Shown one piece after another: positions 58,710-64,000 of a stretch of DNA of 64,000 bases. The stretch comes from Solirubrobacteraceae bacterium. Lineage in GTDB: Bacteria; Actinomycetota; Thermoleophilia; Solirubrobacterales; Solirubrobacteraceae. The position numbers were made by a program, and so were the translations under genes. Positions within the stretch are counted from its first letter, which is position 1; the number at the start of each line of letters is the position of its first letter. The stretch spans positions 1-64,000 of the forward strand of contig JADGPL010000002.1 of the NCBI GenBank assembly GCA_017882455.1, written 5' to 3'. The notes beneath the pieces were generated by a model. That model saw only the letters and a program-made list of their open reading frames with translations. It did no database searches and was not told where the DNA came from.

Positions 58710-58818
58710 TGGCGCAACGGTAGCGGCGCAGAACGGGCAGCGGCGGGCCGGGACCCAGGCAGGCGGGTGCGGCGGCGCTAAGCTCCGAGCCCGGGATGCC
58801 GTTCCTCGGACGTCATCT

Positions 58819-58891
<73 letters not shown>

Positions 58892-59073
58892 TACGAGAAA
58901 GCCCTGCTAAAGCTAAAGTGGGGTTCCCGTTCCAAGCCTCTCTCGCGCCGGGCGGGTCGGTGGCGCAATCCGGCTGGCGGTTCCTCATCGACGCACCCTG
59001 GGGACTCTGAGGCAGGCTGTTCCGGCCATCTGCGTCGCGGTGTCGAGCGCCGACGTCGCCGCCCTTGCGGGGT

Positions 59074-60744: not shown

Positions 60745-61002
60745 TCAAGCGTAAACGAGCTCGGCGCCAGCGCTCATCGCGACGGGCTCCAGGTGCAACG
60801 CTCCCAACGTCACCGCCGGCGGCTCCTCGCCCGGGTGCGCGAGCATGAGGGCGATTCCTTCCTGGAGGCTCTCGCGCAGCTCGTCGAGGTCATCGCCCGT
60901 AGCGAGAACACCGGGGAACTCGTCCACGGTCGCCCAGAACGCGTCGTCCTCATGGCGGACGCTGACATGCAGTTTCTGAGGCTCGGGCATCGTCTTCATC
61001 AT
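60745..61002 (-). CDS. HicB-family-like protein
   Basis: LHVSVRHEDDAFWATVDEFPGVLATGDDLDELRESLQEGIALML (HicB partial RNase H fold pattern). Confidence 0.8.
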   Translation of the reverse strand: MMKTMPEPQKLHVSVRHEDDAFWATVDEFPGVLATGDDLDELRESLQEGIALMLAHPGEEPPAVTLGALHLEPVAMSAGAELVYA

Positions 61003-61134
61003 AGATATCGGGTCAAGGCTGCTTGTCTGCCGCCTCAACAACCGTGAGCATGCATCGATCCTATGCCGCGACCGACGCAACAGCCCGCGCAACCCGCCGG
61101 ACAACCGCACGCGGCCGACGGACCCGGGCCGGTC

Positions 61135-61383
61135 CTACGCGGGCAGCATCTCGTCGAGCGACTTCGGCTCGAAGTAGCTGGAGTGCGTGAGCTTGATCGT
61201 CTCCAGCGAGTCGGCGCTGAGCAGCACCACGTCGAGGTCTTGACGACCACGCGCCTTCTGCTCAGCCTCCTGGTAGCCGTGTTGCGCAGCCTCGTAGTCC
61301 GTACCGAACTCGACGACGGTCGTCCTGCGCCGCGCCACGTCGCGCGTCACGAGGAAATGCTTGATGTCGTCGTCTGGGCTCAT
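61135..61383 (-). CDS. hypothetical 82-aa protein overlapping the RelA/SpoT gene
   Basis: MSPDDDIKHFLVTRDVARRRTTVVEFGTDYEAAQHGYQEAEQKARG...; 4-nt overlap with upstream ORF. Confidence 0.7.
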   Translation of the reverse strand: MSPDDDIKHFLVTRDVARRRTTVVEFGTDYEAAQHGYQEAEQKARGRQDLDVVLLSADSLETIKLTHSSYFEPKSLDEMLPA

Positions 61384-62150
61384 TTGGATTGTCGTTGCGC
61401 GCGTGTGCGTATCGTCAATGATGGCAGGCGCCTCAAGCCCTCGAGCAGATCATCACGCGAAAGTTCGTCTCGGTCGAAGCTGGCGATCAGCTCGGCCATA
61501 GCGAGGAAGATGCTGTCCGAACGCTCGTCCCCGGCACCAAACTTGAGGTCCACGCCAACCTGCCTGCTGGTCTCCTCCACCGTGTTGGCCCATGCGTCCT
61601 GCCCGACAGTTCGGAGCTGAACCTCGATCGGGTAGCCCATGCGCCTGACGATCAGGTGCAGCGCCCGGTAGCCGCTGCTCTTGGGCTCGGCGATGTAGTC
61701 CCGCTCCCTGACAATCCCCCAGGACTTCAGCAGCCGGCGTCTGACGACATACACATGCCGCAGGCTCGGGAGCACCGCGCGAACGCCACCGATGTCCTGC
61801 ATCTGCGTCACGTTGCCCCGCTCGCGCGCGAGCTTTCCGACCAGAGTGTCGAGGCGCTTCAAGCGCTGCGTGACCTCGATACGCTCGCCCACGCGGCCGG
61901 CGGCGCGATCGACGTGATAGCGAAGGTTCGCGGCAACCCTTGATAGCGGCCGCGCGTACAGGCTGCGCCACCACGTCAGGGCCTCCCATGCCTCGTCGAG
62001 CTTCTGCTCGTCGGAGTCTGCGACGGCGCGCTCCGCACCGTCCCGCTGCATTCGTTCGCGGAGGTCGAGCAGCAGCACGCCCGCGCGGTTGACCTCGCCC
62101 TTCGTGAACCGCGGCGCTGTCGGGGAAGAGGCTGAGCGATGCGCGGCCAC
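61380..62150 (-). CDS. RelA/SpoT nucleotidyltransferase-domain protein without HD hydrolase domain
   Basis: MQDIGGVRAVL, RDYIAEPKSSGYRALHLIV, IEVQLRTVGQDAWANTVEE motifs. Confidence 0.9.
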   Translation of the reverse strand: MAAHRSASSPTAPRFTKGEVNRAGVLLLDLRERMQRDGAERAVADSDEQKLDEAWEALTWWRSLYARPLSRVAANLRYHVDRAAGRVGERIEVTQRLKRLDTLVGKLARERGNVTQMQDIGGVRAVLPSLRHVYVVRRRLLKSWGIVRERDYIAEPKSSGYRALHLIVRRMGYPIEVQLRTVGQDAWANTVEETSRQVGVDLKFGAGDERSDSIFLAMAELIASFDRDELSRDDLLEGLRRLPSLTIRTRAQRQSK

Positions 62151-62168
62151 GGCAGGGTGGCAGCCGAT

Positions 62169-62420
62169 TCAACGCCCGAGCCGCGAGAGCGCAACGGCCG
62201 CGACCCAGTTCGGCGCGGGGGTCCCATCCTTGAGCACCTGCCACTCTGGCGGCAGCGGCAGCATCGGGTACATCTCGTCGCGCACCTCGTTCATAGCACC
62301 GGCATCGACTATGTGTTGGCCGTGCGCCGTCTCCGCCCGCAGCCGGCCCTCACGAATCCAGCGACGCACGGTGCCTGGGCTTCTTCCCACGCGCTGCGCG
62401 GCCTCTACAACACTGATCAT
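62169..62420 (-). CDS. excisionase/MerR-like HTH small protein
   Basis: MISVVEAAQRVGRSPGTVRRWIREGRLRAE... Confidence 0.8.
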   Translation of the reverse strand: MISVVEAAQRVGRSPGTVRRWIREGRLRAETAHGQHIVDAGAMNEVRDEMYPMLPLPPEWQVLKDGTPAPNWVAAVALSRLGR

Positions 62421-62837: not shown

Positions 62838-64000
62838 GGTAGGGACCGCCGTTGCTGGCGGCCCCCCGCGCAGATCCCAGCGTGCGGGACTACCGCACTG
62901 GGCTCTTGCCTTGGATTTTGGCGTCAAAGCGGGCGTCGGGCCAGGGGTGCAGGATGCGCACGGTGGGTAGCCATCGGGCAGCGAGGCGCGTCATCCGCTC
63001 CCAGGTCATCCTGGAGCGCTGGCTGCGACGCCGAAGCACTCCGAGCCAGCGCCGGATGATCTGCTGGCGGAAGGCGTTTAGCGCCTCGCTGTTGTCGGGC
63101 ACCGCGTAGTAGTTGCAGTGCCCCCGCAGGACGCTGGCGAGCCAGCGTCCCTGCTCAGGGATGGGCAGGTGCCGCCGCCGTATGAGCTCGGTCTTGACCT
63201 CGCGCAGCTTGGCTCGCACCCGCTTGGAGTCGGTGATGCGCTTAAGCTTGAAGCGCCCTTTCTTGGTCTTCGCGCAGATGTGCGTGAAGCCGAGGAAGGA
63301 GAACGTCTCAGGCTTGCCAAGGCCCCGCGTCTGCCGGTCCTGGGCGGCGAACCGTCCGAACTCGATCAGCCGCGTCTTCTCGGCATTCAGCTCCAGGGAG
63401 AACTCCGCCAGTCTTCGGCGAAGCTCCGCCTGGAACCGTTCGGCGTCATCCCGATGCTCAAAGCCCACCACGCAGTCGTCCGCGAAACGCGTGATGACCA
63501 CGTCACCATGCGCGTGCCGAGACCTCCACTGGTGAGCCCACAGGTCGAAGACATAGTGCAGGTAGACGTTCGCCAGGAGCGTCGAAACCGATGCCCCCTG
63601 CGGAGTACCCTGCCCAGTCTGCGACCAGTTCCCATCCTCGATGACCCCCGCCCTCAACCATTTCTGGATCAGGCGAAGGACCCGTTTGTCCGCGATCCGG
63701 TGCCCGAGCAACCTTTCCAGCCACGAGTGATCGAGGCTGGAAAAGTAGTCGCGGATATCCACATCGAGCACCCAGTTCACCCTCCTGCGCGTGATCCCGA
63801 CCGCGAGCGCGTCCAGCGCATCATGCTGGCTGCGACCAGGCCGAAACCCGTAGGAGAAACCAAGGAAGTCGCACTCGTAGATCGCGTTCAGCACCTCGAC
63901 CAGCGCCCGTTGGACAATCTTGTCCTCCAACGCGGCGACCCCAAGCGCACGCTGGCGCCCATCGGCCTTCGGTATGAACGTCCTGCGAGACGGCTTCGCC
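62838..64000 (-). mobile_element. group II intron, 3' portion (ORF, domain V, domain VI); 5' part beyond window
   Basis: RT ORF, then 34-nt domain V (GAGCCCAGTGCGGTAGTCCCGCACGCTGGGATCT) and a DVI-like hairpin GCCGCCAGCAACGGCGGTCCCTACC; 3' boundary approximate. Confidence 0.85.
62890..64000 (-). CDS. ltrA: group II intron reverse transcriptase/maturase (partial, N-term off window)
   Basis: RRTFIPKADGRQRALGVAALEDKIVQRALVEVL; TPQGASVSTLLANVYLHYVFD; RFADDCVVG active site; open through window end. Confidence 0.95.
   Translation of the reverse strand, partial: AKPSRRTFIPKADGRQRALGVAALEDKIVQRALVEVLNAIYECDFLGFSYGFRPGRSQHDALDALAVGITRRRVNWVLDVDIRDYFSSLDHSWLERLLGHRIADKRVLRLIQKWLRAGVIEDGNWSQTGQGTPQGASVSTLLANVYLHYVFDLWAHQWRSRHAHGDVVITRFADDCVVGFEHRDDAERFQAELRRRLAEFSLELNAEKTRLIEFGRFAAQDRQTRGLGKPETFSFLGFTHICAKTKKGRFKLKRITDSKRVRAKLREVKTELIRRRHLPIPEQGRWLASVLRGHCNYYAVPDNSEALNAFRQQIIRRWLGVLRRRSQRSRMTWERMTRLAARWLPTVRILHPWPDARFDAKIQGKSPVR

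Follow-up and report, generated by a model that had tools for sequence, protein, structure and literature searches.

Introduction

The trigger of CapRel-SJ46 is a phage capsid protein or Gp54, and in phage Phrann the toxSAS gp29 is partnered by the antitoxin gp30. CapRel is reported to be mostly fused to its antitoxin but usually unfused in Actinobacteria, and the C-termini of fused CapRels are homologous to ATphRel and ATcapRel (PMC9712102). Published accounts assign tRNA pyrophosphorylation to CapRel and PhRel (PMC12691689, PMC11782079), and a YXXY motif in the antitoxin is described as blocking the ATP site (PMC9712102, PMC11782079). In ATfaRel2, a circularly permuted pZFD carrying Y51-x-x-Y54, the first Tyr helps but it is the second that is essential, and the same account predicts a block at the ATP-donor site for split CapRel and PhRel (PMC11782079). 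The main text of the portions consulted gives the neutralisation motif solely as YXXY (PMC9712102, PMC11782079, PMC11578894).

Here we describe two adjacent genes in a 64,000-nucleotide stretch of actinobacterial DNA (the window), taken from a draft assembly of 51 contigs. Neither a 16S gene nor WhiB was found in the source genome; its placement in Actinomycetota follows from WhiB, an actinobacterial family, which 23 of 41 genomes of the phylum carry. The genes, encoding proteins of 256 and 82 amino acids, very probably constitute a toxSAS toxin-antitoxin pair of the unfused CapRel:ATcapRel type whose activity is predicted from homology.

Results

The earlier note on this DNA described three consecutive minus-strand open reading frames, an 83-aa HTH protein, a RelA/SpoT protein and an 82-aa ORF, which are indeed present where it had placed them, and the 4-nt overlap between the last two is visible as ATGA. 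The features discussed below are:

61380..62150, minus strand: toxin, unfused CapRel-type toxSAS (toxSYNTH domain), 256 aa, with a GTG start as called
61135..61383, minus strand: antitoxin, ATcapRel/ATphRel-type pseudo-zinc-finger protein, 82 aa, assigned by family HMM and predicted fold
61380..61383, minus strand: ATGA, 4 nt shared by the stop of the toxin and the start of the antitoxin, from the ORF coordinates; this overlap recurs in relatives
61171..61188, minus strand: T66-H67-S-S-Y70-F71, aligned to the CapRel YXXY neutralisation motif (Y352/Y355)
62169-62420, minus strand: HTH ORF, 83 aa, from the ORF call
60745-61020, minus strand: HicB/UPF0150-like ORF, Pfam match slightly below cut-off
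62890-63999, running on beyond the window, minus strand: group II intron reverse transcriptase/maturase (PF00078, GIIM)
58818..58892, plus strand: tRNA-Arg (CCG), where the island with the pair presumably integrated (ARAGORN, Rfam)
58845..58891, plus strand: attL-like direct repeat, 47 nt, with a perfect copy beyond the window at G000:C2:64893-64939

The 256-aa protein is a stand-alone synthetase lacking an HD domain, as had been proposed: Pfam RelA_SpoT is its sole domain (E=1.4e-18, residues 95-189), and Pfam, AlphaFold2 and Foldseek agree on a single toxSYNTH domain with neither HD nor regulatory domains. Its conserved block begins near residue 15. CapRel-SJ46 (9erv/7ztb) provides the top PDB matches by sequence, and in the structure prediction that the earlier note had recommended (pLDDT 90), CapRel is again the best Foldseek match (E about 1e-12). 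The synthetase motifs QDIGGVR, DYIAEPKSSGYRALH and IEVQLRT can all be found, and the catalytic positions are kept relative to CapRel-SJ46: R96, D119, R124 and Y161 align with R79, D111, R116 and Y155 of the latter (Y155/Y161 being the G-loop Tyr), and the glutamate of IEVQLRT is E176. Among phages, the characterised proteins that match best are those of SJ46 and Phrann (gp29). The resemblance to CapRel-SJ46 thus extends to the enzyme domain and its catalytic residues, and the C-terminal antitoxin domain of that protein is homologous to the 82-aa protein; CapRel-SJ46, at 31% identity, differs in carrying its antitoxin fused in cis with the sequence YPNYF, whereas the window has a separate protein with HSSYF.

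An enzyme of this fold could instead be a housekeeping small alarmone synthetase of the RelP/RelQ kind that makes (p)ppGpp, with the small ORF incidental, and RelQ and RelP are indeed the next-best PDB matches. We consider this very improbable. With the curated NCBIfam YjbM/RelQ model the protein reaches 43 bits where 320 are required, and the profile search, the tree and the PDB matches all place the protein with fused CapRels rather than with housekeeping enzymes (profile E-values of 1e-92 for the window toxin, about 1e-40 to 1e-60 for most fused CapRels and about 1e-20 for RelQ-like proteins). A long Rel frame (796 aa, C2:80679) is already present elsewhere in the genome as its one other RelA_SpoT gene, and the toxin is sporadically distributed and located in an island. 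Every close relative of the toxin is accompanied by an antitoxin, whereas the RelQ-like genes surveyed (the RelQ-like-only loci L004-L009 and L083-L086) have none.

The 82-aa protein had been described as belonging to no recognisable family, but it matches the C-terminal part of PADLOC PDC-S33 (E=4e-8) and phrog_22117 (E=3e-6). In a test set of 12 sequences, to which the following E-values refer, an HMM built from seven split antitoxins picks up Phrann gp30 (1e-13) and the C-termini of two fused CapRels, that of Nostoc (3e-15) and, as a weak match, that of SJ46 (1e-4). By sequence, the protein is a homologue of Phrann gp30 and of the pseudo-zinc-finger domain that serves fused CapRels as a C-terminal antitoxin. 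Its AlphaFold2 model (mean pLDDT 82, dropping to about 50 across the last 12 residues) has strands at 8-15 and 20-27, a helix at 30-44, a strand at 50-57 and short helices at 60-66 and 68-71, which is the beta-beta-alpha-beta order of the CapRel pseudo-zinc-finger, with THSSYF (residues 66-71) where that domain has its YXXY turn. SJ46 V338, L339, Y352 and Y355 align with V53, L54, H67 and Y70. A literal YXXY is absent; at its position we count HSSY as the neutralisation motif, in which the second Tyr is kept and the first is replaced by His, the same H-x-x-Y as in Phrann gp30. Foldseek with the antitoxin model alone returned nothing significant, CapRel chains ranking 3, 8 and 11 with E-values of 0.48-0.93, and tblastn of the protein against plasmids and phages gave zero matches.

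Profiles of fused proteins connect the two genes directly. PDC-S33, which detects the toxin with an E-value of 2e-45, has 349 positions, of which the toxin occupies 5-217 and the 82-aa protein 264-329, and phrog_4773 behaves likewise; since both models span the two window proteins in order, these are successive parts of what is one longer protein elsewhere. PDC-S33 and phrog_4773 thus each describe, in a single model and without a functional name, a fused form of what is unfused here. Searched with a profile, 399 genomes of the same class yielded 25 toxin loci, spread over 23 genomes, and an antitoxin-type domain lies directly downstream as its own ORF or is fused to the toxin in 25/25 of them, so the synthetase and the 82-aa ORF are co-conserved partners, the lack of which had been named as grounds for rejecting the reading. 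Further loci were drawn from the rest of the phylum, viral contigs, plasmids and phages; a single-protein search of the viral contigs found no close relatives, and a profile search of them found 80 relatives. One same-genus genome (G665) has three copies. Across 37 loci, the distances between toxins are correlated with those between antitoxins (r=0.69, 0/5000 permutations), which fits the expectation for genes inherited together.

Fused relatives raise the question of whether the two genes are a fused CapRel gene split by a frameshift, through pseudogenization or assembly error. Real breakage does occur elsewhere: fused-type CapRels of Escherichia phage vB_EcoM-673R5 and of one viral contig (L024, L168) are in two pieces, probably through frameshifts. 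For the window pair we regard such a split as extremely improbable. The division with a separate antitoxin start is seen in 36 loci of a supported clade (99*), with the identical 4-nt overlap in 16 of the 36, the window counted, and both halves are under purifying selection (dN/dS about 0.3 for toxin and antitoxin alike against same-genus relatives, with dS near saturation in most comparisons). The recurring overlap and this dN/dS also show that the pair of ORFs exceeds chance.

The earlier note's three-gene cassette did not hold up: just two genes make up the conserved unit, and the HTH protein comes from an HTH-PIN toxin-antitoxin family. The position of the HTH gene does allow for a three-gene system in which its product would serve the toxSAS pair as a regulator of its own or as another antitoxin, since the gene shares the strand of the pair, with 18 nt between it and the toxin start as called, and could be co-transcribed. 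Nevertheless, we judge this quite improbable. Blastn similarity to same-genus relatives covers the pair only (61134-62117 for L036 and 61172-62102 for L031), with nothing outside it. No homologous HTH was found upstream of other unfused loci, so that for this partner the absence of co-conservation that the earlier note had named as a refutation is what the relatives show. Clustering of neighbouring ORFs around the unfused loci gave no third gene that is conserved; five loci contribute to the largest cluster, which is integrase-type as judged by reading. In 25 other genomes of the class that have homologues of the HTH, a PIN-type ORF follows immediately in 22 (by reading; two were verified as PF01850). 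Neither a PIN toxin directly downstream of the window HTH nor a PIN remnant was found. As its same-class homologues mostly precede PIN ORFs, the window HTH has most likely been orphaned from an HTH-PIN toxin-antitoxin system.

The pair lies in an island of about 6 kb flanked by 47-nt repeats that match the 3' end of tRNA-Arg(CCG) perfectly, with a GC content of 65.7% in the island segment against 70% and housekeeping genes on both sides. The nearby group II intron that had been reported is confirmed by its reverse transcriptase/maturase, which is located inside the island. No integrase was found in the island, the one match being at chance level and inside the reverse transcriptase, and the parts read showed neither a prophage nor a large defence island. 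In same-genus relatives, several copies of tRNA-Arg(CCG) are directly followed by a tyrosine-integrase-like ORF, and at L195 the same tRNA is followed by a gene resembling that at 75171 in the source genome (translations read in both cases). Because same-genus copies of the tRNA adjoin integrase-like ORFs, we take tRNA-Arg(CCG) to be an integration hotspot and the pair to sit in an inserted element that has no integrase of its own. The gene after the right repeat has relatives in 1 other of 24 genus genomes, where no tRNA adjoins it.

In a toxin tree of 94 rows made by a quick method with SH-aLRT support, in which 36 of 91 inner branches are poorly supported, one branch (99*) divides H-x-x-Y systems (36 unfused and 1 fused) from Y/F-x-x-Y systems. 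T-H-x-x-Y-F is almost invariant in the unfused clade, and fused CapRels have YxxY(F). The CapRel and PhRel subfamilies are not cleanly split, and Phrann gp29 is a long branch on the unfused side. We considered whether being unfused is causally tied to HxxY, and found this unsupported: a single change on the tree accounts for the His/Tyr difference, and of four independent contrasts between fused and unfused systems, three retain the motif of their own clade. HxxY therefore marks lineage, not fusion state. The fused member of the H clade (L033, 366 aa) keeps HSSYF and sits inside the unfused clade beside an unfused sister, L032; it reflects either a fusion that took place recently or the draft state of the sequence. 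Another member, L046, has an antitoxin with HGDLF, in which the second Tyr of the motif is Leu.

Discussion

Homology, co-conservation, fusion in relatives, the catalytic residues and the fold all support the toxSAS-like reading that the earlier note had proposed. Among known systems, the pair resembles the mycobacterial unfused CapRel:ATcapRel, described as separate adjacent genes in Actinomycetota, a toxSYNTH toxin followed by a pZFD-type antitoxin (PMC9712102, PMC12691689). This likeness is by description, and a Klenkia homologue, 37-38% identical to the window protein, was aligned instead. PhRel:ATphRel of Phrann (gp29:gp30) has the same gene order and a homologous antitoxin (E=1e-13) that shares T-H-x-x-Y-F, but gp29 is a long-branched toxin with about 32% identity over 77% of the query, and its genes are separated by a 7-nt gap in a phage genome, whereas the window genes overlap in a chromosomal island. 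FaRel2:ATfaRel2, likened to the window pair by its description (PMC11782079), is likewise a two-gene, translation-targeting toxSAS neutralised via the ATP-donor site.

We infer toxicity, a tRNA target, neutralisation in trans and phage sensing or defence by analogy with these systems. The 256-aa protein would be a pyrophosphokinase of the small alarmone-synthetase fold that, when free, most likely moves pyrophosphate from ATP onto the 3'-CCA end of tRNA, stopping translation. The 82-aa protein, made from the overlapping start codon, most likely binds the toxin in trans, with its T-H-S-S-Y-F turn probably inserted into the ATP-donor pocket, between R96 and R124. Removal of the antitoxin by an infection cue would then free the toxin, and the infected cell would be sacrificed.

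A bolder extension, which we think unlikely, is that the unfused actinobacterial clade uses a different neutralisation chemistry, with the near-invariant T-H-x-x-Y-F replacing YxxY, and that here the pair has also taken over a promoter and an HTH repressor that belonged to an HTH-PIN system. If the former were true, the turn would suit an antitoxin that has to bind tightly in trans yet be releasable by a trigger.

As an unfused CapRel:ATcapRel pair, the locus would provide a compact and intact CapRel of two genes from an actinobacterial lineage about which little is known, and HxxY versus YxxY is a clean clade marker separating the unfused from the fused systems. It also illustrates how an unrelated toxin-antitoxin remnant adjoining a toxSAS can pass for a third component. 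The orphan HicB reported beside the pair is an ORF with a weak HicB/UPF0150-like match just below the Pfam cut-off, and no HicA was seen beside it. Ahead of this ORF, at 61053-61018 on the minus strand, is a truncated start, MLTVVEAADKQP*, like that of the HTH at 62420 (MISVVEAAQRVG), possibly a decayed second copy of the HTH.
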